Source of the DNA: Polytrichum commune
Taxonomy: Eukaryota > Streptophyta > Polytrichopsida > Polytrichales > Polytrichaceae
Reading direction: 5' to 3'
DNA length: 64,000 nt
Assembly (NCBI GenBank): GCA_950295325.1
Contig: OX485808.1
Coordinates: 4,588,501 to 4,652,500, forward strand
Under the pieces are notes generated by a model that was given only the letters and a program-made list of their open reading frames with translations, searched no databases and was not told the DNA's origin. Shown here in pieces: positions 2,606-64,000 of the stretch. Positions within the stretch are counted from its first letter, which is position 1. Each line of letters begins with the position of its first letter. Position numbers and translations under genes: made by a program.

Positions 2606-5600
2606 GATCTAATGATGGAATACCTGTTATTTATCCCAGCTATGGATCTTTATTCAGTCACCTGTTTTGCACACCATAACCTTGTAAGTATACAACCATT
2701 GTCCTCATCTACCACAATAAAATAAGTGCATCATTATTTTAACAAAGTTATAAAATGAATACAAACAATATTAAGCTAATTACCCCAAAAAATACAATGC
2801 AAAAGTTGATCATACTAAAGGATAATCCACACTCTAATTTTGGGATACATTAATTAAAATATAAACAAATAAATGGTATTTATAATGTCAAGAATGAATG
2901 TGAAAGTAGTTTCTCTACATAGCTTCAAAAATACTCAAAAAACATTATTTAGTGGCATTTATCATTTGGACTTGCATTTTGGTATAATGTTTTACAAGCG
3001 AAATACAAATATGTGTTATACTAGTAATATCCAAGACTACACATGGTAAAATATGCCATTCCAATTAAAGAGTTAGAGCGATACGACAATCAAGTGCATC
3101 ATGCTAATTAATGTTATAACACATGGTTTTATTCCCTAAAAAGAAATTTAGTTTTTTCTTGGTCAAACATAGAGAGGTGTATACATAGGAAATGAACTTC
3201 TAGCTCTAAGAAATGGACCCTAAACATCACCTTCCTCTCTCCCCTCGAGCACTCAATCAAATTCAATAGTCTATTCCTCAACTAACCAATAAAGAACCAG
3301 ACACTTAAAAAATAACACATTAATATTCCTAAAAGTTTCATATGAGCAACCTTGGACAATAAGATATGTATAAACGAATCTCAACACTAACAATTCATGT
3401 GCATTTTGGTGATTACACACAACCAAACTATATGACTAATCAACATCGCCTTCACAACAAGTGAGTGTAGAGTAAATAAACTTCATGCTCATAAAAAACA
3501 AACGTTTCCACTCAAAAACAACATCTACCAATTGTGCTTCGATGTTCAATTGGATAACCACACCCACATGTTGCTCATCCAATGGCATATAGTAGTTCAG
3601 TAGATAGACCGTGTGCATAGACAAACACCAATAGCACATACCATGTCAATAATTTATGAACTAATTGAGTTTTACGTTTCATTTTTGAGAGATGATCAAT
3701 GGCATTGTTGAATTTATGTAAAAACATTTCCCTACTCATAGCATAATTTAGTTTTTTATACGGTCTAAAAGCCAACCTAACATTGTGGCTTTCATAGGAT
3801 AGGAGAAGATCAAAATATTATGTGTGAGAGGTCAATATGCGTGGAGATATAGAACATGCCAATTTGCCTAGAATCCATTATGTTCCTTGACTACGAACCT
3901 CACAAAGAAAGATCGAACTTATCATAACATACATGAGGTTTCAATAAAATCACGCAAACAATAACAACACACAAAAATGGCAAACACAAACATGTTTCTA
4001 CGTGTCTATTGCAGATGGACAATACATTAACAATAACCAAAGTCTTAAAAAAATCCTCAAAAACAGACATTCATGCTCATTCTCAAAGACAACACAGTCA
4101 TGAAACTTTAAACTTACAAGATAGGTATATCACCACAAAAGTTTCACACTCAAACCTTCTCGTGAGCCCTTCAACCAAATCACCTCTCCATTATTCATCC
4201 TATGCAACCTCCCAATTGTGGTGGCAAGACTACTTAGGAATATGAATTAGACATCCGCTTTCAACCAATTCAGGCTAGGTTGGAGAGGGGAAATGTTGGA
4301 CTATAAAAATATATGACTTCCAAATTAAGATATTCATTCCCTCCTTCCCCCAAGATCCACACAATTGATTGATCCAAATAACCGACTAGGATGCAATCTA
4401 TTGATGCCTAATCCACCTTCATCTCCTCCAACTAGGCTACAAAATGTTTCAAGAAAGGATGAGGCAAGGATGCCATCTAATATTATGAAGTTGACATTAA
4501 CATCTTATACTAAATTAATCAATGATATGATCCATAATCTCTTATCATTCTAATGTAGGGGGGGGGGTGGCTCGAGGTCAATTAACGTAATTTGTCACAA
4601 TTAATGAGACATAGGCAACAAACTTCAAAGGCACAGTAGTAGCGATATTGAGTTAGTGTTATCAAAAAATACATGATTGATATGGGCATGTATAGGGCCT
4701 TGCAACTCATTGCCTTAGTCTTAATGTCCAGAATTTTAGTAGATGTCCCACTTTCGCCAAGGGGACCATCTACCTCCAGCTATCTATAGATGGGCCGGTT
4801 GGGTTTGAAAGATAACCAGTTCACAATCAAAACTTTATGCAAATCACCAATCATTTTAGAAGAATCTATACAAAATAAAAAATAAAAAATAAAAAATAAA
4901 TAAAAATTGATGAAGGAAAATTGAAAGATATTAACATTTGAACTGGTTGGACTTGGAAAAGTGAACGGGGAGAACCGACCGCTAGTAACAAAATAACAGG
5001 CTGAATTTGAGAAATAACTTGTTCAAAACTTCAAAAAAATTACCAATCAATTTTGAGGAATCTATAGGATATATCTAAAACGAATAAAGTAGAACTAAGA
5101 TTACAAGTAACTGGTTGACTTGGAAACACTGGGATTTTGACAAATAATGCCTAAAAATCTCCCAGGACACAAACTTGCAAACAGTTGGATGTCAATTGGT
5201 TTTGTCCAAAATCTTCCCGGACACTGCTCTAGGGCCCTTATCAGGCCCTCAAAAGGCCAACACCTCGCATGTCCAATATCTTCGATGGTGTATGTAGTTA
5301 TATGCTGTTCCAGGTGCTCTCATGACCGGAAATAGCAAGTCTTGAACTTGATGAGGCCCATATAATTTGTGTATTTGGATGTACGTTGAGACCCTCTGTC
5401 CTTTGAGGGTTAAGCTTAAGTGGAAGATCAGTACCATGGGAGTGAATTTTTTTGAGGGCTCTTAAATAATCTATTTATTCAAATCTATTTCAGATTTGAA
5501 TGATGGAAAGACCATTCAACGAATTGCAATATACTATGAACATGAATGACATGACAAATTTGAAACAACCTCTTCAATGTTTCTCAAATGTTTGAATTTT

Positions 5601-41888: not shown

Positions 41889-42084
41889 GTACTTGTGCAC
41901 CTAAGTCAATTCTTGGAGGGCCTACTTACATTACATGTCCCAACTTGCACACACAAGAGTCAGCAGTAGAAATTTGGCATGTAGCTAGGTGAATCCATGG
42001 TATCATGGATTAGATGATCGAACTTCATCCAACATGAATAAATTCTTGTATTACTGTATTCAGGTTTATGTGGTGGGCCTGGTA

Positions 42085-45000
42085 AGAAGAAGAGAAAGTT
42101 CGGTCACCGGTAGGGGACCGACGTGAATGAAGTGTCTGTTCGTTCCACCCCTAAACCTATGTCCACGGGACATAGGAATAGAAGTAAAGAACTACTGCCC
42201 CCTTTCGAGAGTAGACACTATAATCACAAATAACCAGTAACAAATAGAACCAGTACAAATAAGGGTTAATTAATATAGGGCTTGTTTTGTGCGGAGTTTA
42301 GACGTCAGGCCATGAGCTCATTGTTGTGTGGAGAGGGCGTTTTTTTCACATATAACTTTTTGGTTAAGCTAGGGGGGCGGGGTCTTGTATTTGAGGTAGA
42401 GGTTAGTGATTTCGTAGTCTTCTTTTGTGGAGGAGGATGGACATGGCGTATTGTATGGCAATGGTATTGATGTTTTTAAAGGTATTTCGAATGGATGGCA
42501 TAGGTAGTTTAATTTTGTCTTCAAGTAGTTTCATTGATGGGATGTGTGTTGCGGCTTTGGCGCCTGCTGTAATGACAATGAGCGGGTCAGTTTTCCAGCC
42601 TCTAGCAGCAATGTTTTCTATTAGTGGCTTGTATTTGTTAGCTTTGGCTTCTAGTGTTTCTGGTGAAAATCTATTGTTACAGTATGTGAATTCAATGAAT
42701 TGTATGGTAAGGTTTTGGTCAACATTTGTGGGGGGTTCATTTTGATATGATAACCCTTTAACGCACAGAATGTCGGGTCTAAATCGAGAGTTACAGTGGC
42801 ATCTCTGGGTTCCGCATGTGCATGATAATAGCCAGTTAAGGACGGTGTTTTCTTGGGGGTTGTTATTAAAGGTATCAGCGTTCATTAGAGTGTAGCATCG
42901 GGATTTTTTAGATGAAATTAGTAATTTTCTAATTTCCCATACTGCTTTGTTGTGTCTTTTGACGTGTAGCGAGTGTATGTGTTGTTGCCCGCATGTGAGT
43001 AGTACATGTAGCCATGTATCGGGTTCGTATGAATTACAAATAGGACAGGTGATGGTGGGGAATCTTTGTCTTCCAAAGAAGGTTTGTTTTTTGGCTTGGC
43101 CCATGTAAGTTCCGGTGCAAAATTTGATAAGGCACAATTTTTGTTTGTCCGTAATAGTAGGGTTGTTCCAAAATTCATTGGAAAGTTCTTTGTTAATGTC
43201 TGCATTGCCTGTCCATTTGCAAATATTGGGGGTTTGTGTGGCCATAATTTTTAAGTTATTTATTCTGTCATATTTTATGATTTGTTTTTCTAGAAATCTA
43301 ACGGGGCCTTTGTCTGGTGTATCCATCATGGAGGGCCATTCGTCCTTTTGGTAGTAGTAAGGTGTGGCATGGGCGTGTTCATATGGGTATATGTGGCACT
43401 TCTATGGGCAAGGTCTAGTCCTTTTTTTGCTAATTTATCTACTTGTTCGTTGCCGTCTATGTTGACATGTGCTCTGACTTTGTATAATGTGATTGGTTGG
43501 GAGCGGTTTTGGAGCAATTGTACCATGGAGGCAAGTGTGACTTGGTCGGGGTGACTATTGTGTAGTGTGGGGTGTTTAATTTGTGTGTTTAGTATATATA
43601 GTACATTTAAGCTATCGGTGAATATGTATGCGGGTTCATTTGGATATTCGGTACTAATAATTCGTAGTGTTTTATGGATAGCAATCATTTCTGCACGTAG
43701 GATGTTCTGGTGGCCATGTATTCTTTTGGCAATGTTGAGCCCTTTAGGGCTATAAATGCCATATCATGCTGTTTCCTTTCATATTCCAGGGGAGATTAGT
43801 TTAGGTTTTTTAAATGAACCGTCAGTATAATAGTTGAATTATGGATGGAATTTTAATGGTAAGTTAGTTTGGTAGTCGGGTAGTTGGGGCATAGGTGTTT
43901 CATTGAGTGTGGAGATATTGGGATAAGTTGGTTTGGACCACTTTCTGCTAGAATTGATAGGGGTACTCGGGGGAGTGTGCGTGGCAATTTGCGTATATGG
44001 TTGTTGTATTGAGAGATTATTTTCAATATGGGTGAGTTGATTTTGTTGTTCATAGGTTCCTATGTAGTTATTTTGGTGGTGTATGCAAAGTATTCGTAGT
44101 GTAGAAAGTTCTTTTCTAGGTATGTTAAGTTCTGGCGGTATAGTAGGTTCTTCATATGTAATGGAATCTGCAGCAAAGTGGGCGATAATATGTGTGTCTG
44201 GGAATGGGCCGGAATGTGGGTTGAAGTTTTGGTACCAATTTGTATATGGTGTGATGAGTATTGTGATGGTACTTGGGTCACTTTTGGCGGCAAGACGGGC
44301 CCAATGTATGGCTTGTTGTAAGTCTGTTGCGTTATTAGGGTGGGTATAGCCTATTCTTTTCCTTTTATGGTCAAAGGCTTTCCCTAAGGATCCAAATATT
44401 TTATCTCGTGAGAATGGAGAATAAAATTGATTTGAGATGTATAGGGCATGTGACTGGAGATGAAAAGTGTAATTGATTGATATTGAATGATGTAATGAGA
44501 AAGTTTGATATTGGGGTTGATATTGTGTATTGGGCTAGTTTTAGAGGGTCATTTTTTTGAATACGGTATTTATATCTTTGGTATAACCATACCATTTCAG
44601 TTTCAAATGGTTGTGTGGGTGGTTCTAGTCCGTGTGGGGTGTTTTCTGCGAGTTGGTATTGTTTCCATAGCTAGTGTAGTCTGGTTTTGGGAATGGTGGT
44701 GAGGTGCCGTCCATTGTCTTCATATATGTGGGCAACATCAAAGTGTGTTAGGATAGTATTGGTGTTGGTTTCTATATCATTTTCGGGGTTGTATTCATTG
44801 ATAGAAATATGTACTAATGGGATAATTGTTGCGGGGGTAACATATCTTGTATCTCGTTGTTGGTCTGTGACAAAGTGGGCGTTTATTAAGTTCGAGAAGT
44901 GTTTATGTTGTCTTTTGGTATAGTATTGAGTTAGTAGTCCGGTATTATGGGCGCAAGTGTTAACGTCATACCAAGGGAATAAATCTCTTTGGGTTCGCCA

Positions 45001-46100
45001 TTTGTTGTAGATGTTATTATTTCTTATTATCCATTGGCATAAATATGATGTGTCATTTTTCGTTATTCCATTGGAGTCAGTGTAATGTCGTTGTTTATGA
45101 TCAAGGATTAAGTGAATAGGAGATTGTCTAGGATTTTTAATAACGTCTTTTGGTGGGGGAGGTTGGTGTGGGTGAGGTGGATTTGGGGGATGCACTGAAG
45201 GTTCGGGTTGTCTGGGGAGAATGTTGTGATTTATTATGATGTAGTTGTCTTTTAGGGTTCTTAGGGGATGATGGTGTGGACATGGTTGTTGACATTGCGG
45301 GGGCAAGAGGGATGACAAAATAGTTGTTGAGCAATGTTTAGTACACTTTTAATTAGTTTGGTAGGATTATAATGATAGTTTTTAAAATCATTTGGGCTCA
45401 TCATATTAAGGCCATTGGGTAAAGTGAGTTGCCCTAGTTCAATTATATTGTTCAGTAGTAACTTTTATAGTAATTTAAGTGATGTTTATGATTTAGGCCA
45501 TGAATGTTTTGCGTTTCTTTCATCCAGACGTTTTCAAGTGGGGAGGTGTTAAATATGAAATTGTCCATTGTGCTTTTTAGATGAACTCCGACTTCTTTTT
45601 TAAGTAAGAATAATGTTCTAGTTATAGGTGATCGGACACAATGGTGGTATTTGATACGGAGTATTTCTTCGGCGCCACCAAATGTTGTTAGTATAAATTG
45701 TAGTAGTCCGTTGTAAATTTTCCCAAGTCTACCTGTGTCATTAAGGGCATGTTGTAGTTGCTCACCAATACATCATAAGTAGGCGTTTTTTAGTGAAAAA
45801 ACTTCTATTCCAAATAAGTCATGAGGGAGTTGCGTGGCTATGTTTGAGGTGCATTTTGGTAGTCCACATATTGTTTTGTGGAGGGCTATAATCTTTTTGT
45901 CTAGTTTTTTTTATGGCAGGTAGGGAGTATGGTACGGCGTAGAAGCTATATGTGATTCCGACACGTATAACTGTGTCTGCCATATTAATTTTTTGTTTCA
46001 TAGTGGTTGGACATGCTGCAAGGTCTTTGCATTGTTTTATAACTTTGGTGGTGATGGTGTGTATTTGTGAGCCCAATATTGTGCCCACATGTCTTGTGGA
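42085..46100 (-). mobile_element. Decayed non-LTR retrotransposon (RT tail, RNase H, zinc knuckle, restriction-like endonuclease)
   Basis: Minus-strand relic of an ORF2-type polyprotein. 46088 downward gives the end of a reverse-transcriptase region (KQKINMADTVIRVGITYSFY, then LDKKIIALHKTICGLPK after a shift at an A8 run). 45318-44671 is a Pro-rich linker. About 43835-43326 is RNase H with its acidic residues in YTDGS, RAEM, IFTDS and NEQVDKLAKKG. 43329-42403 has CPICNSYEPDTWLHVLLTC, then RPDILCVKG...IQFIEFTYC and ETLEAKANKYKPLI, which match the C-terminal restriction-like nuclease region of site-specific LINEs. Two TGA codons in the RNase H stand where Trp is expected. Known: LINEs of the Dualen/RandI type combine RNase H with such a nuclease. 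The 5' half is missing. Confidence 0.7.
43326..43835 (-). pseudogene. RNase H domain of the LINE remnant
   Basis: Contains all expected acidic residues: Asp in YTDGSF, Glu in RAEM, Asp in IFTDSLN, and Asp in GNEQVDKLAK after the KVRAH segment. Interrupted by two TGA codons (PGI*KETA*YGIYS). Degrades RNA in RNA-DNA hybrids in active elements. Confidence 0.75.
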
Positions 46101-49660: not shown

Positions 49661-52600
49661 CATGGTGCCTCTACAAGGACTTAGGGCTTTAGTGAGGATT
49701 AGGGGTAGAGCAAGGGTGATATTAGAAATTACATTGGTAGGAAGGGGGCAAGTAGAGAAGGGAGTTGAAGTTAGTCCAACCCTAACTTGTTATGTTTGGG
49801 TTGTTTATTCATTAGCTTAGGATTGATTGCATTGGAAAACCCAATGGTTTAATCATGAAGGATAAACCTAGTGGGGAATCACAGTGGTGGAATGAACACA
49901 AGGTGTGGAGTATTTTGTAAATACTGATTACCTGGTGCTCTTGAATAAAGAGTGGTGTGTTTGAATTTCACATTATTGGGAATTGGGAGCTGAATCATTG
50001 GCCAAGGCATTGGTGAGTACATATGATCCAGAGGCTCTCACCCGGACTACGACGCATAAGGGTGGGGGTTTATGGCTGACACTAGAACAAGGAGACTACC
50101 TTGCATGCATGTGCAAATTTGTAAGTGTGTAGGGAATTCCAAAAATTGTTAGGGAGGTGTGTGAAAAGAAAATTTGATGACCACAATGATCATCATGTGA
50201 TGCATATCTATATTGTTAATCGTCAAAAAAATAATTGCTTTGATGTTTGTTTTTTTGAAGCCTACCCTACATGCAACTGGAAACTAGCTAGTTTGAGAAT
50301 ATATTAGGCTGCATGGAAATGAAGTACGTGGGAATGTGACATGGTCAAAATTTGTGCACAATCTCCATCATAGCAAAGAGAGTGTCATGACATTATATCA
50401 GAAGTGCAATTATTATAAACATAATGAATTTGCATGTTTTGAATTTAATTTGTGTTACAATCTACATTCTCCATCATGTAATGCCCATCTTGTATGTATG
50501 TTGCTCATACTTCCTGAGTAGGAACAGGGTGGCATGGGATGTGCACAATGGGCAATGTACAAGTGAGATCCAACCGAAGAAGAGGATTCATGTTCCAAAT
50601 ACGAGAGACAGTTTGCTAGGACATTGTTGATAAGAGAGCGAGATGAGGTGGAATTGAAAGTGTAGAAAGCAATGAAGAGATACCTTGTGACATTACAGGA
50701 TCAAAAATCACTCCAGGCAGCCTTGCAATTGATGAATAATAAGCACACAAATTGAGATGAATGGAATGGACGAATATTTGATTGTTCGGCACATGGGTGC
50801 ACCTAGATGTTGTGGATTGAGAAATGCAGCGCAGGGGGAGCCCAAACTCACAACAGATCATTGTGTAAAAGTTGTTTATTAAACCATGCGAGAAAGAATG
50901 TAGGGTATTTTTTATTCATTTGTGAGAAAATTTATACAATTCTTCGATATAATGAAGCACCTCTTCAATTACAAAGTTGTGTGTATAGAAAAATAAGGGT
51001 ACCATATAATGCATCAATTTATCTAATTCTTTCAATCTAAAATAGGATTGGGAATAGTAGGTAGAGGAAAACATATTGAGGCAGATGTATACAATGCATT
51101 TTATGGTGGTCAATGGATGAACAACTATCCATTTTCAATCCAAATTCCCGAATGAAAAATTTGGATGGCGAGGGTTTTGATGTTCTTTGCTTTGTGCGTT
51201 GGATCTTTGATTTTTGCCTAGGGTTGCTTGCTTCAAGTTTGTTTGATTTGAACATTGTTTGATGTATGTTTTGGAACAATAGGAGGTCCTAATAATGCTT
51301 CAAGTTTTTATATTTTGGTACATTGTTTGATGTCTTCAGTCTAGACATGGTTTATTGAATTTTCACTACAAACTTTCAAGAGTCCTATGATTCGTCATTC
51401 ATGGGGTCAAATATAAAAATTATAAGGAACATAGGGTACTAAAAACTAGTTCACTTGCGACTTTATAAATATAAATAGGGTCATCTAAAATGACAAAATT
51501 TAGATTTATCTGTACTAATAGGGTGTAAAGTATCCAATTTCTTAGATAAATAGCCCCATGATAAATACCCTTCCGTCGCAGATGGGTTATCAAATACATG
51601 TATGAGTGCCCTACCCGGGTAATTGACTATGAGAGTAAATTTCATTACAATCGCACCATAAAAAAGCAAAGAAGGAAGTGGGATTAAAGATGTTGGGTTC
51701 GTTCTGCTCATCCTCCTCCATATTATTCTGTTTCATGTTATGGCCGGGTACGTCGCCGATCTTTGCTGCTTGACCCATCAGGCATGTTTAGGGAAGAGTT
51801 TTGAACCGGAGAACACTCATCGTCATTTATTTGTGCATCTGGATCATCCATGGACTTCAATCTCCTCTCCATATTCATCGATGCATGCATCAAGTACTCG
51901 TCTCCTCAACATTCATCGAGATACTGCCACCAAGTATCCATGCTGTGAACTTCTGTTCAAACGACTATTGGATCTCCAGATACATAGCAGGGCCTTCCAT
52001 CTCATAGGGGTCAGGTTTTTATGTTGGATGCATGAGAGGTATGCTCACATACGATAGGTCCCTCTCTCCCCATAGGCCTGGGCAGTTTGGGTAAGCTTGA
52101 AGTGTGATAGAAATGTGTTCATGGCATTGTTAAAATAAGCTCTTGTGTTGACGCTTCGGGGGGTTCACTGGCGAAAATCGTAGAACAACGTGCGATAAAA
52201 AATAGGGTCTAATATATTCATTGTAGATAAATTTTGGAAAAAACCTACATATAATATAGGGGGTTTTTAAATAGTGAAACATGATTACATGTAAAATACC
52301 ATCACATCTTTATTTTGAAAAATACCATACCTTATATTCTCTTCTGCAAGGTAAAATAGCCCCCCAATAAATAGGTCCCGAACGCACATGTATGCAAAAT
52401 ATAAGAGGGAGTGAACCCTCCGAGGTTGACGTTGCCCCTTGATCTCAAGGACCTCCAATGTTGCACTTGTTAGTCAAGGAACGGAACCCATTTGTCAAGA
52501 TCTCTCCTGCTATAGGAGGGACCGCTTGATCCATGACATTGTGATGAGCATGTGGCCCCAATAGCAAAGTGAACCATGATCAATGAGGAGGAGGACCGGT

Positions 52601-54968: not shown

Positions 54969-56374
54969 ATTCCTTCAAAGGTTAACCCCTAAATGCTCAT
55001 GCAACCCGAAATGGGTTGCCACCTAATATTTTGATGGGGTTTGCAACTTACTAGGTGGCAATCTACGTGGATGAAAGGTATCTACTAGTGTAGGGTGGTG
55101 CCTGCTACCATGCGGGCCAAAATAACATTTAAAAACCTCATACTTCAAGCATGTAGGAATTTTTTGTTAGGTTGGCACTACTTTTTTTGGAAGGCAGTTC
55201 CTTGAGCTACCCAAATGTATGAGCCAAATTTACGAGCCAATATCTTTCACATATGATGCCCAATTTGGGTGGGTATTTATTTATTTATTTTTATTAGGAG
55301 AAGGTGACGGTCGTGCACAACTTGACTGGATGGATTTGGAAACATATGAGTGCCCATGTTGCCTACTCCATCCAAAAGGAGAAATCTCCCAAAATGACCT
55401 CATTTGGCCCCAAGGTCCAACTTTGAGGGTGACAGACTTCATCTGAATTTGCTCAAAAAACCCAAAATTTCTAAGAATAGCTCATTTGTCATCTACATAA
55501 CACATTATGGTAAAGTTACCAACTTTCAAAAATTTGAAACATGACCAAAATGATCATGAAATTGGAAAATTTCAGAATTTTCTCTAGCTGCCCCCCGGAT
55601 GAAGGCCATGTTCATTAGTCAAACTCACCTAGGAAATGTTGTCCGATTGACTTCACATTTTCTCAGCATGAGTATATGGTAATCTTATTTACATCCGTGT
55701 GGTTGGATTGCCAGAAAACAAAGTCAATACGTAACAGAATTTTTCAGCACTGGTGCTGGAAATGCCCGAGAATAGAATGTGAAGGTTTGAGCGTTTAGGG
55801 GTTAATGTCGGACGCATAGCCAACGCGGGCGCCTGTCAAGAACATATTCCGAGTGTGAACTTGAAGGGCATTCTCCAAGCACTTCAAATGCAACAAACAT
55901 GTTTGCCCCAAATGTCGCCATACATGTTATGGGAAGCATGCTAATAAGACTACTATTTGTTGGTCAGTTCTCCATCGGAGAAAACACTATATTTGGTATT
56001 TGGAGACTTTTTGTTGATTATGAGACTATATAAGGATGCACATTTCAAAATTGGACCAGTAATGACGACTAAAAATCCCATATGTATAATGGTATGCTAC
56101 TATTATTATACATAAAGGCATGGAAGTGAAAAAAAATGTGAGGCATACATGAAAATAGTTGCGTATGAAATGACAACTCGTTATGAATGGAAGGGAAGAT
56201 GCGAAGAATGAATGGAAGTAGAATGAATTAATTGGGATAGAAATACAATTATAATGGAAATACCATCAATGTCTTGAGTAACTTGGAATAGCATAGAAAG
56301 TAAGCACTTAAATATGTTCTACACCTAAGCCCATTTAGGGAGTCCATCCCACTAGTACGCTTCTAGACGTCACA
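54969..56374. other. AT-rich intergenic region 3' of the GC-rich gene
   Basis: No gene is supported; the ORF at 55219-55446 has no domain. Base composition changes abruptly at about 56400, where the GC-rich exons begin. Confidence 0.45.
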
Positions 56375-58251
56375 CTAGTCCGACCCATTATTTTTTTTTG
56401 CGGCTAAGCCCTTTTTTTTGGCGGCCTCCATGGCTCTAAAAATCTCAGGCCCACGACTGTATCCTTGTGTGTTGCCTGGACAGGAATATGTGTCGTTCTT
56501 GCATGTTTCAGGACGCGCTCCCGAATTGTAAGAGGTGGTATTATAAGTAGAATGCGAGGGTGTTTGCGAAAGGGAACGTCTTGCGCTTCTCCGGAGGGCC
56601 AGACAACGATCGGACTCGGAAGATGCGGCCTTGAGGGCGTGCCTATCCAAGGAGGACGTGGAGGAGGGCCGGGCACCAAGCGAGCGGGTAACCACCTGCG
56701 AAACAACGTCATAGGAAGATAAGAATAGGAATGGAGTGGGGAAAATAATGAGGGCGGTTTGGGATGGGCGCTCGTAAAGAGAACGGCACGCAAACGGAAG
56801 ACAAGGAAAGCAAAAGCGAGAAAGGGGTTCAGGGTTGAGGAGGGCACCTTGGCTTTGGGGACGTCCATGCGGGGAACGGTGGGAACGAGGGGGGCGTCGA
56901 CGGGAGCATCCGGAGCCGATGGAACTATTGCAATGTTGGATGGCGGGGGTGAGTCGAGGCGTGGAGGGCCCACGATCGCGGAGGACGTTGCGGGGGGAGG
57001 AACGGAGTCGGCGGGGGAGGTGTGGCAACGGGGGCCTTCCATGCAGAGACGGCGGCTCGGCCCGCGACGAGCGACGGCGTCATCCCTCGAGGGCGAGAGG
57101 TGTCCCAAACGAACGAGCGTCCGTTTCTCCTTGGAGAGGGGGGAGGGCGACGGGGCGTAGGCGCGGGCGACAAGTGGTGGGGGCGGGCTGTTGACGACGC
57201 CGTCGTCGATGCCGATGTCGCGGGAGTAATCCACGGCCGAGGCCGCGTCCACCGCTGAGAACTGGTAGAGGGATGGCATTTGGAAGTCCGTGACGTCGCG
57301 GGAAGGGGAGGCAGGGGGCGAGAGGGGACGGGAAGGGCCGTCGACCACAGGGGCGTCGCATATGGGGGCAGACTATGGGCAAGAACAACAACAACAACAA
57401 TCACAACAACAAAAGACATCCAAAAACGAAGCAAGCATTAGTAAATGTGAACCACATGATACAAGCAAAGACATGGAGGCATTTCAAATCAATTTATTGA
57501 GTTTGGCGAGCCTCATGATGCTCTTGAATACATTATCGCGGGGGCTTAGCGCCGCATTGCCGAAGGGGTTGGACCTAACAAAAAATGGGATGCTACCGGC
57601 GTGGAGCACGAGCCTTCTAAGGTAGGGGGCTAGCCTATCGACCAAAAATGTGTCTTGCCTATCGCCGGTCCAAGTGTCCGGGAAGATGACGTTGCCCGGG
57701 GGGTTCAAGACGCTCTTGGTGGGGCTGTCGTCGATGAGGACGGTGTTCTCTGGAGTCGGCCACCACCCGTGCGGCGTCCCTTGCAGACGGGGGACGCCTC
57801 GCCAGAGTGTCGAGCGGAGGACCTTGAGGACCTGTTGTCCTCCGCCCCGACCGCCAAACTTGGGCACCGGTTGACCTTTCTCGTCGAGCAGCTCGTCGCA
57901 GTCCTCTTGGCCGAGGACGAGGCAAGGGCTCGGGAGATCGCGGAACAAGAAGTGCACGATGGGCTCGGTGTTCTCCATGACCATGGAGCTCCACACAATG
58001 ACGTGAGCGAACTCGACCACCTCGCGAAGGAAGTCACGCAAGCCGGGACGGGCGCGGACAGCCTTGCGGTTAATGAGGGTGTCGAGCTCGCCGTCGTAGT
58101 CCCTTTCGTCGGGGTGACGGAAGGGACGCGTGGGGACCCTTGGGATGTGTTGGGTGTGACACAACACCCCGTTGAGGTCAAAAACGATGAAAGGTTTGTT
58201 CCGGGTGGGAGGTCCACTGGTAGAGGGGTTGCGACCAATCTCCGGGGGGTC
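56375..58251 (-). CDS. FCP1/NIF-type HAD phosphatase with Ser/Pro-rich tail (exons D-F)
   Basis: Exon D (58251 to 57532, or to the TGA at 57484) follows CATCACAG and opens in phase 0 without an ATG. It holds a complete FCP1-like domain: KPFIVFDLNGVLCHT (catalytic DxN form used by plant members), RPGLRDFL, VIVWSSM, VLIDDSPTKS (second Asp pair) and the closing FVRSNPFGNAA. The family dephosphorylates Ser/Thr, classically on the RNA polymerase II tail. Possible exon E (57372-56848, after TTGCCCATAG, to AAG|GTGCCC) and exon F (56695-56375, after TTTCGCAG) are Ser/Pro-rich with a Lys-rich end (AAKKKGLAAKK); both are in phase 0. Because exon D lacks a start, it must join an upstream exon. Donor 58868 gives an in-frame join to the gene at 58854-63189. 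The D-E donor (AAT|GTATTC) is weak, so exon D may instead end at its own TGA. Confidence 0.6.
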
Positions 58252-58384
58252 CTGTGATGAACAACTCGACTAGTTTAATTCTATGATCCAATAATGAAAT
58301 TTTGCGTAGAAAATGAAGACGGTGCATTATGGGGAAAGACGAGGAAGTGAGGAGAGTGCAAGGAAAATGTGCTCAAGGGCACAC

Positions 58385-58840
58385 TTGCGAACGAGCGTTC
58401 GTGAATGAAGGCTGCGGGGGCGGTGCGCATCATTTACGAGCGCTCGTTCGTGAGCGCGGCTACACGTACATTTACGAGCGGTCGTTCGCGAATGAGGTGG
58501 ACAGTGGGTCGCAGCCTTTCACGAACGAGCGTTCGCGAATGAGGTGGGTATGCAAGAATGAACATAATCTCATCAACATATACAACATACGAGAAGGGGT
58601 CGAGGGCAGAGAATTTGAAGCAACGCGATGCAGATAACATAGGCTCATATATTAATCCGTTGAATATTTACATTTCTCACGTGAAAGTCTATCACATTTT
58701 CCTAAGGCAAAATGATGCCGTGTCCTACAAAACTGTTCGGCCCTAAGGGGGATCGCTGAAGAGGGCTCTCGCGGGCCACTGGATGTCGATGAAGAGAAAA
58801 ACATCGCGATGTTAGAGAGGTTACGAACGCGCGTTCGTAA
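58385..58840. repeat. Five palindromes between the coiled-coil exon and the phosphatase exon
   Basis: Sites at 58385-58405, 58433-58454, 58471-58492, 58518-58539 (all with A-to-G arm changes such as ACGAGCG) and 58821-58840. If exon C is spliced to exon D these all lie in a 617-nt intron (58252-58868). An alternative short terminal exon, 58778-58743 (WPARALFSDPP then stop), would also be in frame. Confidence 0.75.
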
Positions 58841-60302
58841 AAAAATGGTATTCTCAGAGGAGAGTTACCTCGTCATCGGGGGGAGGGGTAGCGGCGCTGG
58901 ACCGAGCAGCAGGTCCCTCCTCAACGATTAACGAACGCGCGTTCGTAACCTCCACAGCTGCAGCCGCCTCTGTCTCCATGGCCTCTGCCTCACGCTCCGG
59001 TTGAGAGGCCTGTGTCGCCTGGATGCGCAGCGCGTCTTCTTCCTCGGCGCCCAGGTCGAGCGCGTCCATCCTGACATCCTCCATCCACGCCGCATGGGTT
59101 TCTTCCACGTCCATCCCATGCACACCTGGTGCGTCATTGGGGCTCCCCTGCGTGTCCTCCACAATGACCATGTCAGTGTGTCGCGCAGAGTCATCGCCAT
59201 GTCTGTCTACTACCCTGGGGACGACGGTGAAAGACGATGCATCGGTGTATGAGGGCAGTCCTACCCTTGAAGGGGGAGGGGTGAGGACTGGAGGACCTGA
59301 AGATTCACGAACGCGCGTTCGTAAATCCTCGTCCTCCTGGATGGCCGCCGCCACAGCATCGTGGGAGGTGGTCGAGGGAACCTCTGGTGGCGGAGGAGTG
59401 CCAACAGGCGTGGGGTGGGGCGCCTGCTGGCGGGAAGGCCCTCCGGTGAACATGCCCGGTGGAGGGGATTGGGAGGGGTATCCTCCAGGGAAGGGGTAGG
59501 CCGGCTGGGGGGGCGCCGAGAAGCTCTGCATACGCTGGAGCATGGCGAGGATGGCGTCCGTCTTCTCGTTGGACTGCCTCAGCTCCTCCTGAATTTCGAA
59601 CATTTTCTTGGCATTCTCCTCTGCCGCCTTCGCCATGTCCTCCTTCATCTTTTGCTCGAGCTTGGCGTTAAGCTCGGCGACGGACAACGCCTCCTCTTTG
59701 ACCCTCTTGTTTTTGTCAAAGTCTACCCCCAGCTCGACCATGATCTCCATGTCGCCCTCGTCCTCATCGGAGACCTCGATGATTGCTCCCGGAGGCAGCT
59801 CCACGTAGGGGGTCTTCTTCATCCTCCGCCTCGTGTTGCGGTACTGGTCCAACGTCGGTCGGGACCGTTGGTCCAGAAGGTCGAGGTTCTCCATCTTGGG
59901 AACCACGATCGGCCTGGGCGACATGGATGTCGAGCATCCCCCGGGAGTGCCGAATGCCTCCGCTCCAGACGTTCTCGCGGGGAGGACATCTTGGGTTGTC
60001 CCCGCCGACGACCCCGTGTATCCACCCGGAGTCCCTTGCACGTCGGATGGATTTCCCGACGGCGCCAAAATGCGGAGAGGAGTGACGCCCAAGGATCGGA
60101 GGATCGCCTCGACGTTGTAGGAGGGCGCGGGCTCGTCGTCGTCCGTCTCCATGGCGGGCATGCCTTCGTCGACGGGCATGTTGATGTCCGTCCTCGGGAG
60201 GGGCATGTCCTCCAGGTCCATCGTGGAGGCCTTCGCCCTGTGCACGTGGAAGTCCTCCTCGTCGATGGCTTCAATGAAGTTGTTGACGACCAGCCCCAGC
60301 AT

Positions 60303-60447
60303 CTGAGGTCCAAGCAAATACGTTAGAATATACGAACGTGCGTTCGTAAACATCAACGACGAGAAACAATGCAAGTTTTAATGAAAACCAAACAGTTGAG
60401 GTGAACTTTACGAACGAGCGTTCGTAAATATTAGTTGGAGAGCTTAC
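60303..60447 (-). other. Intron B/C, 145 nt, with a palindrome at each end
   Basis: GTAAGC donor and GACCTCAG acceptor. Palindromes lie at 60407-60428 (from intron position 20) and 60329-60350 (26 nt before the exon). Confidence 0.8.
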
Positions 60448-61772
60448 CATCGCAGCGTACATGAACTTGTTGCCGCCACAAACGTTGTACACGGTCTCTC
60501 CGCTTATTGCCACGCTCTGCAAAACGGAGACGTAGAACTCCAACCTGAGTTCCATCGCCGGGAAGACAGTGTACAAGGTCTCCTGCAGCAGATCCTTGGG
60601 AGGGGGATGGGGGATGCTGTAGATCTTCTTGAACGTAGTGTTCGCCTTGACAGGGGCTCGCCCATTCCGCAGCGCGTTGTACGTCAAGAAGACGAGGCTG
60701 ACCGCCCCCACCTGTTTGTTCCCCTGGCCTCGTTGATGGCCACGATCCCTTCCGTCTTGGCGGGCACGTAAGTGCTGTGGAAGATGTTGTACTCAAATTT
60801 GATCGACTTCTCGTACAGGTCGACTACAGCAGAGAGCTTCTCCTGCTGGACTATCCACAGCCAAACGTGAGGCTCCCTCATGTCCGGAGACTTGTGCTCC
60901 TTGAACTTGGCCATGAAGGGGTCGTAGAAAGGTATGTCCTTCCCCCCCTGCCTCGACGCACCGGGGATCCCCCTGAAATCGATCAGGGCAAATGGGCACC
61001 CCCGTCGATCCTCCCTCACCTCGGCCCTGCTCATGGTCCGGTCCCACTTGGAAAATGTCACCCTCTCCACTCCTTTTGTCAACAGACAAAATCTGGCCAC
61101 TCCTTCGAATGTGGCCAACCTCTTCCGCGTCAAAAAGCTTCTGTATTGCTCCACCTCCTGGGGATCCGTCTCGGTTTTCTTTGTCCTCTTGTTCCCCTTC
61201 TGCTTCAAAATGGAGGCGTGCTCCTTGACAAGACAACGCATTGAGGGTCCGGAGATGTTGTAGTCGACCTTGAACATCTTCCAGCTGGCCCAATTAATGT
61301 CCCCGTCGGCTAGGATGAGTGCGTACTCTGGTATTAGGGCGCTCAACTCCCTCATTGCAGTAGTCTTCAGCTTGCGGTGTTCGCACCATTCCTTGATGGA
61401 ATACGTGCCGGGCTTGTGTCTTGGCCTCTTCAAAAATATCTTCGGGTATGGGATGGTTCTTCCCACAGTGTTCCCAAGAAGATGCACCGCGCACCTCTGC
61501 AACTCGGACTCTGTTAACCCTTGAAGGGACCTGAAGAACTCCCTCAGTAGTGGAGGGGCCTCCCCGGTCTTCTTCGCGCTGTACTTCTCCTCGGTGTCGG
61601 GGTTGACCAGATCGCCCGAGCTGTGCGCATCAAAAAATTGTGTCCACAACTCCTAAGTGTCCCTGTTGCAACAGATGAGGCAGAGCTCACCCTTGAGCTC
61701 CATGACAGACTTGGTTGTTGTAGACTTCATGTCGATGGAGGAGAACTTGTCCACCATCGCGTCGCAGAATGC

Positions 61773-61893
61773 CTGCAGCAAGAAAGACATCAGTAACGCA
61801 CAAAATACGAACGCACGTTCGTAAGTTTGAATGTCAAAGAACTTGAAAATTTGAATGTCAAAGATATTTACGAACGTTCGTTCGTAAACTCAC
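61773..61893 (-). other. Intron A/B, 121 nt, with a palindrome at each end
   Basis: GTGAGT donor and CTGCAG acceptor. The palindrome at 61867-61888 begins at intron position 6. A second at 61803-61824 ends 30 nt before the acceptor AG. Between them TTTGACATTCAAA is repeated. Confidence 0.8.
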
Positions 61894-63217
61894 CTTCCAT
61901 TGTGGAGACGGCGTCTTCGCGTTCTCCCTTTCTTTAGGGGGGCACCCGTGGGCGACCCAGACGTCCCTTGCAGCCACTATGTTGGCTGCCCACGACGCCT
62001 CGAAAGCCTTGATCTTGTTGCCGGAGTTGAGGAAGGTGGATATCTTCCGCAGCTTGTCCCAATCGTCCGACCACACCAAGAACGCCTTCCAGTAGCGCAA
62101 GTCCTCCTTCAGCTCATGCTGGAAGTTGTCGTCCTTGAGAATTATTTGGGACGCCTCCAAGCTGTGTTGGCCGTCTATGATCCAGAACTCTCCATTCTGG
62201 ATCCGTGGCCAGTCCTTCTCCGTCGGACGGGATGTCAGCCCCTTCGGCATGACGCAGACGGTTTGCCTGTCCCACTTGACGTTGTTCATTAGATTATTTA
62301 TCTGCCACTTCACACCACCGCTTTCGCGAGAGCGAACCACCCATTTGTTGGGGGACATCTCGCACTTGAAGCAGTCCACGTTGAATGTGAAGTGGCGTCC
62401 CATGGGCCAGCAATCCTTCGAGTAGTTGTTGAAATCTCGAAGGATCCTCGTGGCCTTCACAGCGTCAGGGTTCTCACCCTTTTTCAAGGGGGTGGGCATT
62501 ACGACAGGCGAGGTCACCTCTGCGGTCTCCGTTACTCCCGATTTCTCCATCTCCTCCCTTGTCCTCTTCGATGGCGTGGAGTGTCTACTGGGGCCCTCCG
62601 TCGCCCTGCTAGCGGAAGGCACAGGCCTGGGTGCACTTCTAGATCCTCCTGCCCCTGATGTGGATGGTTTCCTGGGGCTCTTCTTCTTCTTGTTTGCCTC
62701 AGTGACCACACTGTTGTATTTGGAGATGTTCAATGCAAGGGCGGTCAATTTCCTTGCAGTCCAGTATGGGCTCAACGCATATTTGGAGAAGAGGCCGTCC
62801 AGGTCGAAGTGCTTGGCATCTTCCGCTACGTTATTGGTGGCGTATTGGTAGGAGAAGGTATTTTTCTGAAAATGCAACAAGAGGTTGATATGATCCTTCT
62901 TGTTCTTCATGTCCAGAATTACATACTCCCCCTGGGCCTCTATGGACTTTATCTCCCACGTCTTCATTTGAACCCACTGTTCGGGCTGGTCCGGTCTTGT
63001 CTCAAACTCGTAGGTGAAGCGCATGCAGAAGAGGCCGTCCCCGATCTTCTCTGGCAGTGCCGTCCACTCCCCCATGAAGTCTTCCTTGGGGACATAGTTG
63101 TCGTTGCCGTTATCGTCTAACACCGACTCTGGGAGGCCATCGACCTTCACCGCGAACATCTCAATGGCGCTTCTGCTTGATCTTGCCATCTGCAACAGAA
63201 TATAAACAATTAGTGAC

Positions 63218-63800
63218 TTTACGAACGAACGTTCGTAAGTGACATGCATATCCCACAGACTACGCAGTGTTAATGCGTCTTTGCAATTGATGTAATTATA
63301 TTTACGAACGTTCGCTCGTAAATGAGGGGTTGCAAGATCATATAAATTTTTAGTATTGAGTTTACGAACGAGCGTTCGTAAAAGATATGAAGATCAAAGA
63401 GACTACTCGTCATGAATGTGTTTATAATATATTTGGTTATTTTTACGAACAATCGTTCGTAAAAGATATAGGTTTTATAGGTTTGGATTCATTTACGAAC
63501 GTGCGTTCGTAAGTATGTCCATTTGGTCTATCTTTTCGGATATTTGGTTGATTTATCTTTCGTAAGTACATGTGATTTGTCTTATTGGTGTTCGCAAAAT
63601 TGTATTTGTTCTTTAGATATTCATAGAGGTTCATATTAAAGTTAAGGTTCCTTCTGAGTGATATTTTGAGTATATTTACGAACGTGCGTTCGTAAATATA
63701 GATCATTTCAAAGAACGTGGAGTGCGTATTTACGAACGCACGTTCGTAAATGGAGGTTCGGTATGCAGTGTATGTCCATTTACGAACGAGCGTTCGTATA
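63218..63800. repeat. Cluster of eight palindromes upstream of the ParB-like gene
   Basis: Sites at 63218-63239, 63301-63322, 63361-63382, 63442-63463, 63492-63512, 63675-63696, 63729-63750 and 63779-63800. Arm TTTACGAACG and its complement flank a 2-nt spacer that differs between sites (AA, TT, AG, AT, TG, TG, CA, AG). Flanking sequences are unrelated. The first lies 28 nt upstream of the exon A acceptor. Confidence 0.85.
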
Positions 63801-63836
63801 TGTGATGGTTTTGGGATCCCCTGTCCGTACATATAT

Positions 63837-63888
63837 GTATTCGTATATATACGAATACGTATATATACGTATATATATATAACTCACT
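63837..63888. repeat. AT-rich palindrome block
   Basis: 63837-63858 is a perfect 22-bp palindrome (arm GTATTCGTATA and its complement), followed by ACGTATATATACGTATATATAT. It differs from the CGAACG palindromes but sits at the edge of the same cluster. Confidence 0.6.
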
Positions 63889-64000
63889 TATTAGCTACTC
63901 TGCTTGCAGCCGTGCCTGCAAAATTTTGGTCAGAATGATGCAAATCTTCAATCATAAAGCAATTGAGATGCAGAATGAGATGCAGAATGAAACATGAAGA

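Follow-up and report, generated by a model that had tools for sequence, protein, structure and literature searches.

VANC proteins are the anti-silencing proteins of the VANDAL (Mutator-like) elements of Arabidopsis (PMC5735166, PMC10398659). The motifs of one of them, VANC21, form tandem repeats, which differ from one related element to the next and are located upstream of VANA21 as well as within introns of the VANC21 and VANB21 genes (PMC5735166). Here we study a stretch of 64,000 nucleotides of Polytrichum commune (contig OX485808.1; G000:C6:4588501-4652500; the whole stretch is called the window below), which holds the left half of a 16-kb DNA transposon with nineteen copies of one 22-bp palindrome at and around a gene that we call gene 1. 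We find that the palindrome arms are better conserved than their flanks between related families and that, in the loci examined, the type of palindrome tracks gene 1 and not the transposase. With about even confidence, we propose that the gene-1 protein binds the palindromes of its own family and so would keep, or turn, the genes of the element on against host silencing, as VANC does. To our knowledge, sequence-specific anti-silencing by a plant transposon has been well worked out only for VANC/VANDAL.

The likeness to VANC/VANDAL lies in short repeated motifs that are private to the element, occupy introns and upstream regions, differ between related elements and sit beside a fast-evolving gene other than the transposase. 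The VANDAL motif, however, has 9 bases arrayed in one orientation, whereas here the unit is a 22-bp palindrome with a fixed 2-nucleotide spacer, and VANDAL elements have a Mutator-type transposase, whereas this element, which is not from Arabidopsis, has a gene with the domain DUF7869, a 4-bp target-site duplication and a phosphatase on board. No Mutator-like transposase is among the Pfam matches of the transposase frame (DUF7869 only), and DUF1985, the domain of VANC proteins, was not found in gene 1 (exon 1 searched up to an E-value, E, of 10, exons 2 and 3 up to E of 1, and six gene-1 rows). A genome search with PF09331 gave no match, but its controls were also unmatched, so that absence is not established by it. 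We infer a system that would work like VANC/VANDAL and yet departs from VANDAL in both transposase and VANC domain. In the literature searched, with most subscription journals outside its scope, we found no mention of DUF7869, PF25273 or IPR057191, and, among the papers listed and judging by title and abstract for the palindrome arms, nothing on such a system under those arms, moss and ParB, Polytrichum or bryophyte anti-silencing.

Allowing up to three mismatches to TTTACGAACG-NN-CGTTCGTAAA, the window has 19 palindromes, all within 58384-63800, and none outside that interval; shuffled windows have a mean of 0.01 matches, and 0 of 100 shuffles attained 19. The initial annotation of this DNA, which had reported nineteen palindromes and none in the preceding 58 kb, is borne out on both counts; its start positions are exact for 16 of the 19 sites and off by one for three (truly 58384, 58820 and 61804). 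Its 'nearly invariant' arms put the case slightly too strongly: the arm columns do carry 1.0-2.0 bits of information, but exact palindromes account for 5 of the 19 sites, and five others (the four leftmost and 61804) have three mismatches each. It was right that spacers and flanks vary, at 0.2 and 0.6 bits in the two spacer columns and 0.0-0.7 bits in the flanks. Because of this gap between arm columns and flanks, we take the 22 bp to be the entire conserved unit. Beyond it, conservation among the 19 sites is absent and the flanks are mutually unrelated; unlike miniature inverted-repeat transposable elements (MITEs), the sites have no conserved body, and no longer consensus that would betray a MITE surrounds them. 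The further claim that the pattern is unlike copies of a transposon is not supported, as all 19 sites are internal parts of a large, many-copy DNA transposon, even if the lone palindrome is itself neither a transposon copy nor a MITE. The features of the window are as follows, in window coordinates, with strand given for the coding frames:

55983..64000, left half of the transposon, with left terminus AACACTATATTTGG; its right end lies past the window at 72207
57484..58269, minus strand, NIF/FCP1-like (haloacid dehalogenase, HAD) phosphatase frame, PF03031 with E 2.9e-16, left of gene 1
58384..58539, four palindromes upstream of the phosphatase, the group beginning 115 bp from its frame
58820..59325, three palindromes in the 3' part of gene 1, those at 58928 and 59304 within the open frame
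58854..60303 (upper limit approximate), minus strand, gene 1 exon 3 and its open frame
60329..60428, two palindromes in gene 1 intron 2 (intron limits by eye from GT/AG)
60450..61775 (limits approximate), minus strand, gene 1 exon 2, with an in-frame stop and a frame change in the window copy
61804..61888, two palindromes in gene 1 intron 1 (intron limits by eye from GT/AG)
61880..63192, minus strand, gene 1 exon 1 (P0001, translated as 437 residues); its motif FWIIDGQHSLEAS is the sole basis for calling it ParB/DGQHR-like
63218..63800, eight palindromes upstream of gene 1

Gene 1 has three exons, with introns placed by eye from GT/AG, and is divergent from the DUF7869 gene, which lies on the plus strand past the window end. 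Twelve further palindromes stand upstream of that transposase-like gene (L001 3094-4346, which is 67094-68346 when window coordinates are continued into L001). The 3.3 kb that separate this group from the eight upstream of gene 1 have no sites, and both ends of the element are palindrome-free, over 2.4 kb at the left and 3.9 kb at the right.

The confinement to a single locus reported by the initial annotation holds within the window, and not beyond it: besides the twelve sites just mentioned, the 408-Mb genome has 2,909 exact palindromes of the window type, which rules out a single GC-rich locus. About 20 WRKY genes in this genome, a by-eye estimate drawn from 34 exon-wise matches, are in keeping with a seedless land plant. 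The palindromes come in five types, listed here with their exact genome-wide counts, each of which has a reversed control of 0, and with the loci that bear them (L numbers denote the loci fetched):

Type TTTACGAACG, 2909 copies: the window and L019; also L013 and L014
Type TTTACGGACG, 1147 copies: L008/L010; also L027 and L028
Type GTTTGGGTCG, 9231 copies: L006/L009 and L018
Type CCCACGGGTG, 819 copies (20-bp pattern): L005 and L017; also L029
Type GGTGAGGCA, 155 copies (20-bp pattern): L007/L012, L015 and L016

All nine sampled DUF7869 loci (L005, L006, L007, L008 and L015-L019, picked for differing frame lengths and scores and not at random) bear palindromes of one of the five types, the fewest being 3 in L017. 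The spacer is 2 nucleotides long in 386 of 391 sites from five families and 27 loci, counted with at most two mismatches per arm and spacers of 0-8 nucleotides tried, tandem units and near-identical copies not being independent. Gene 1 is present with all five types (L009, L010, L018, L013, L014, L019, L027 and L029), more weakly with GGTGAGGCA, where the match is weak (E 0.004 in L015, around a shared VDGQH that is also in L012); with CCCACGGGTG only fragments were seen in L005/L011 before the gene was found in L029. When the window, L010, L009 and L029 are compared, palindromes occupy matching places in front of gene 1, within its first two introns and in front of the phosphatase, while their letters differ; this placement was worked out in four families, those of TTTACGAACG, TTTACGGACG, GTTTGGGTCG and CCCACGGGTG. 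Tandem arrays are common, with units of 78 bp in L006, 59 bp in L007 and about 179 bp in L001. A satellite-like palindrome array was also observed at G000:C1:645185-645913, with 34/33/93-bp steps (a 160-bp unit), at the right end of a cluster spanning 640864-646099. Other clusters from the palindrome scan, all outside the five types, were set aside, namely AT-rich simple repeats in L005, L014, L017 and L019, a four-member cluster at L001 354-450 and a three-member cluster in L007 that overlaps GGTGAGGCA sites.

With five types in hand, we can ask which gene the type follows. The C-terminal part of the transposase is 89% identical to the window's in L019, which has the same palindrome, and 85% identical in L008, which has another; the figures for L006 and L018 are 66% and 64%. 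For gene 1 exon 1, loci with the window palindrome stand at 90% for the C-terminal part of L019 (66-69% for its N-terminal part) and 88% for L013, and loci with other palindromes at 40% for L010 (53% over the last 89 residues), 44% for the C-terminal part of L009 (22% for its N-terminal part) and 21% for L029. Exon 2 is 81% identical to the window's in L013, 53% in L010 and 39% in L009. Because the L008 transposase is nearly as near to the window's as that of L019, while its gene 1 and palindromes are not, we conclude from these alignments that the type follows gene 1 in the loci examined. Elsewhere, L009 and L018, which share a palindrome, are 80-86% identical in gene 1 and 90% in transposase, and the TACGGACG palindrome persists in L027, with 78% gene-1 identity to L010. 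That sites might cluster at paralogues of the gene had been raised at the outset, and they do: on C1, where the lists are comparable and among the matches listed, 3 of 3 gene-1 copies with TACGAACG palindromes and 5 of 5 with TACGGACG lie within 0.6 kb of their own type. The nucleotide similarity of L008 to the window (L010 was left out of this comparison) covers the transposase side and the terminal part only, and the site closest to the L008 transposase, at 5541, retains TACGAACG arms. This is what would be expected had one half of the element been exchanged, and since the phosphatase differs too (61% in L010), the exchanged block would hold both gene 1 and the phosphatase.

We compared arms with flanks in ten pairs over the 900 bp that precede gene 1, and also in intron 1. 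Upstream of gene 1, the window's arms are kept at 140/160, 133/150 and 122/140 positions against L013, L014 and L019, respectively, compared with 340/637, 258/511 and 313/643 outside the arms and 10/16, 4/16 and 6/14 in the spacers. In intron 1, arms are kept at 34/35, 35/37 and 37/38 and the remainder at 38/70, 34/69 and 42/69, in the same order of loci. An aligner may anchor on the sites and so inflate the arm figures, which makes intron 1, fixed by exons on both sides, the safer case. The near-identical C1 copy is uninformative here (arms 155/160, outside 643/676). The arms thus outlast the flanks between related families, and, together with the nearly constant spacer, this upholds the initial suggestion of selection on two half-sites of the kind a dimeric protein reads. 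In the 78 distinct 22-mers, 114 changes affect a single arm and 16 affect corresponding positions of the two arms.

Drawing on these observations, we propose that a DNA-binding protein encoded by the transposon itself, most likely the product of gene 1, uses the palindromes as paired half-sites, with the protein of each family recognizing the palindrome of that family. We propose a dimer because paired arms at a rigid 2-nucleotide spacing suit dimer binding. Many palindromes at the promoters and introns of the element's genes would let the protein keep those genes on, or turn them on, with the result that the genes of its own family stay active despite host silencing; anti-silencing is proposed because promoters and introns are where VANC21 motifs lie. 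The two parts of the proposal differ in strength. Gene 1 probably encodes the palindrome binder, judging from the sequence comparisons above, and an activating or anti-silencing effect, as opposed to repression or a part in transposition, has in our view slightly less than an even chance. If true, this would be a second anti-silencing system, of other proteins and other sites and with at least five families in a single genome, so that private 'keep-on' sites would be a repeated answer to silencing; it would also supply five natural protein-palindrome pairs for reading a recognition code and for studying the joint change of a binding protein and its dozens of sites. Because the 22-bp palindromes are fixed, binding can be tested directly.

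The main rival, which we consider unlikely though worth serious weight, keeps an element-encoded protein at the sites and reverses its effect: the palindromes would be operators for a repressor or autoregulator that controls copy number. Sites upstream of all three genes and in the gene-1 introns speak for it, but intronic sites and arrays of 8-17 copies exceed the seeming needs of an operator, and the nearest known parallel, VANC, activates. It is rather improbable that the sites instead serve the transposase in cutting or synapsis. The transposase-binding motifs of Ac and Spm are subterminal, whereas here the element's ends are free of sites for 2.4 and 3.9 kb and, in the related L009/L006 element, the outermost listed sites lie 2.8 and 3.8 kb from the ends. 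Arrays do stand just upstream of the transposase-like gene in the window, L005, L006, L008 and others, and distant transposases go with different palindromes; in L008, however, the palindrome switches while the C-terminal part of the transposase remains 85% identical. The absence of sites from the ends and the L008 case both speak against the transposase as binder.

Very improbable is the reading in which the elements have adopted sites of a host protein, an insulator protein or a transcription factor. Paired half-sites would suit many such factors and nothing more direct favors it, while the 55,982 bp of the window outside the element have no site, and the five types in the genome, each matched by a single gene-1 group among the loci examined, speak against a host factor. 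Neutral spread of a satellite-like repeat or MITE within the elements has only a very slight chance of being right: many arrays are tandem and GTTTGGGTCG has reached 9,231 exact copies, but the flanks of the 19 window sites are unrelated to one another, arms are kept better than flanks between families, and the gene-1 introns of four families hold differing palindromes at matching places. The hairpin that the initial annotation had offered as an alternative target of selection, or a cruciform, at the DNA or the RNA level, can be all but set aside despite perfect inverted repeats whose pairing is kept in 14 of the 16 same-place changes, since one-arm changes outnumber those so heavily and a 2-nucleotide loop in 386 of 391 sites is a constancy that no hairpin needs.

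Several observations weigh against our proposal that the gene-1 protein binds the palindromes and keeps the element on. Promoter placement suits a repressor equally well. Gene 1 has no recognized DNA-binding domain in Pfam, NCBIfam and PHROGs searches. The discordance on which the gene-1 link turns comes from one element only (L008/L010) among the loci fetched; its left half differs as a block, making the link to gene 1 inseparable from one to the phosphatase, and the N-terminal part of its transposase is slightly further from the window's (73% over 161-499) than that of L019 is (76% over 109-421 and 96% over 419-499). The open 3' frame of gene 1 contains two palindromes (58928 and 59304), and a transposase intron of L008 contains a degenerate one, 2.3 kb from the end of that element. 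In intron 1 the spacers, like the arms, are kept (4/4, 3/4 and 3/4 for the window against L013, L014 and L019). In the weakest upstream pairs the contrast shrinks, with arms at 113/158 and 324/639 outside for L013/L019, and 167/268 and 237/541 for L014/L019.

As to what the gene-1 protein may be, a second parallel comes from bacteria. PMC10770331 presents VirB as a ParB-like antisilencer, and ParB/parS and VirB/virS as clamps dependent on cytidine triphosphate; PMC4619093 gives the order of DGQHR/ParB-like motifs as QR ... DGQHR ... FxxxN; and a survey that names sulfiredoxin (Srx) as the commonest eukaryotic representative of the ParB fold does not contain 'plant' or 'transpos' (PMC12704722). 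Like those DNA-binding proteins, which load at short specific sites, gene 1 is linked to short sites and has (D/N)GQH in what may be the DGQHR/ParB-like order; inspection by eye shows (D/N)GQH together with an RQ pair and an F..N stretch in several rows of the gene-1 alignment (A1, A2), though not in all. Unlike them, it has no family match, and the candidate likeness rests on a 22-column stretch around the motif. An hhalign comparison of gene 1 with bacterial DGQHR proteins (8 plus 4 loci, chosen by eye out of 80) gives 76.7% over 22 columns, and we do not use it as proof because the bacterial set was picked by the DGQHR motif itself, making the match partly circular.

Family searches did not confirm the likeness. 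Exon 1 has zero matches in Pfam (E up to 10), NCBIfam and PHROGs, and no ParB, DndB or DGQHR family or structure was found for gene 1 in Pfam, NCBIfam, PHROGs or PDB. The best chance-level matches of the six gene-1 rows are YEATS (E 0.015) and DUF6551 (E 0.2), in one row each, and the exon-3 frame has a sub-threshold match to the coiled-coil family HAUS-augmin3 (E 2.4e-4, 21.1 bits against the 29.4 needed). A single-sequence structure model of the gene-1 domain has a predicted local distance difference test (pLDDT) score of 33.8 and is useless for judging a ParB/Srx fold. No relatives of gene 1 were confirmed in viral and prokaryote contigs. On account of (D/N)GQH, the motif order and the precedent of VirB, we nevertheless put forward, as a doubtful possibility, that gene 1 encodes a DNA clamp with a ParB fold and a nucleotide switch, which, as VirB's counterpart in a eukaryote, would load at family-specific parS-like palindromes, slide over the element's genes and fend off silencing; palindrome and protein would then have changed together, giving at least five mutually blind clamp systems in one genome. 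Among 1088 first-look genomic candidates for gene 1, the 96 scored are 87-100% identical, six of them, including the window, at 100%.

The transposon itself measures 16,225 bp, from 55983 to 72207 (L001 8207), and has AACACTATATTYG at both ends. Its left end is where homology to the window begins, at 55983, in the copies at C1:68.34 Mb (L024+L020) and C3:7.05 Mb (L025+L022); its right end is common to the window and the copies at C1:2.53-2.54 Mb and C1:68.36 Mb. The C3 copy serves for the left end only, its right end not being found in L023 or L026, and the C1:2.53 Mb copy, which matches long pieces of window 59974-72207 at 93-98% identity and has no homology left of 59974, serves for the right end only; the gene 1 exon 2 frame is continuous in this copy, unlike in the window. 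Both ends are in hand for the copy at C1:68,340,583 to about 68,356,718, with CACT on either flank, and for the related L009/L006 element at C5:934,623 to about 951,221, with TCAT on either flank, and because 2 of 2 such copies are flanked in this way we take the target-site duplication to be 4 bp. CACTA (En/Spm) transposons have CACTA termini, a 3-bp duplication and a CACTA transposase of their own. The terminal repeat here contains CACTA, but the ends begin AACACTA, the duplication is 4 bp (CACT and TCAT, in two copies), and DUF7869 stands in place of a CACTA transposase.

Positions 51619 and 73697 were rejected as terminal inverted repeats of the element: there is no target duplication, and the left boundary is the end of a repeat shared with L005. 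An inverted repeat pair of 93% identity does lie outside the element ends (window 51619-52155 and L001 9149-9697), the L005-shared repeat ending at 51619. The right end of the window element directly adjoins another such end in inverted, head-to-head orientation (L001 8207-8744), and a terminus-like sequence, ATCACTATATTCGGTAATTGGAGAC, on the minus strand near window 24050 is perhaps the end of another related element.

Of the other genes, the plus-strand frame past the window end has DUF7869 (PF25273, E 4e-40) as its sole Pfam match, and we read it as the putative transposase. Its stretch GHTHDDID in the window is replaced by GHTHEDVD in L005 and L017, by GHTHEDID in L007 and L015 and by GHIHEDID in L016; the DN preceding it is kept in L005, L015, L016 and L017 and not in L007. 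When 150 of the 1490 genomic DUF7869 candidates were scored, all 150 were above the cut-off. The phosphatase has relatives in the matching place in L010 (61% identical), L009 (43%) and L029 (35%), so that it is seen in four families (window 57484-58269, minus strand; L010 7150-7920; L009 3142-3861; L029 7144-7809), with palindromes upstream. At the position of DxDxT, the usual phosphatase motif, it reads DLNG in the window and DVNG in L029; this transposon-borne enzyme is possibly a polymerase-tail phosphatase.

Base composition gives some last details. The four CpGs that the initial annotation had counted in each site are there in the window family, and not in others (the arm GGTGAGGCA has none), so that CpG as a theme common to the families is ruled out. 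The observed-to-expected ratio of CpG is 0.88 in the element with sites masked and 0.55 in window 1-55982, regions whose GC content also differs. The 22 changes seen at CpG positions in the TACGAACG family are without exception C>T or G>A, compared with 49 transitions among 124 changes at other positions, which suggests that the CpGs of these palindromes have been methylated in some copies and says nothing for function. The window's maximum of strand skew falls in two successive 2-kb bins at 42001-46000, with GC skew of 0.33 and 0.42 and AT skew of -0.22 and -0.24.

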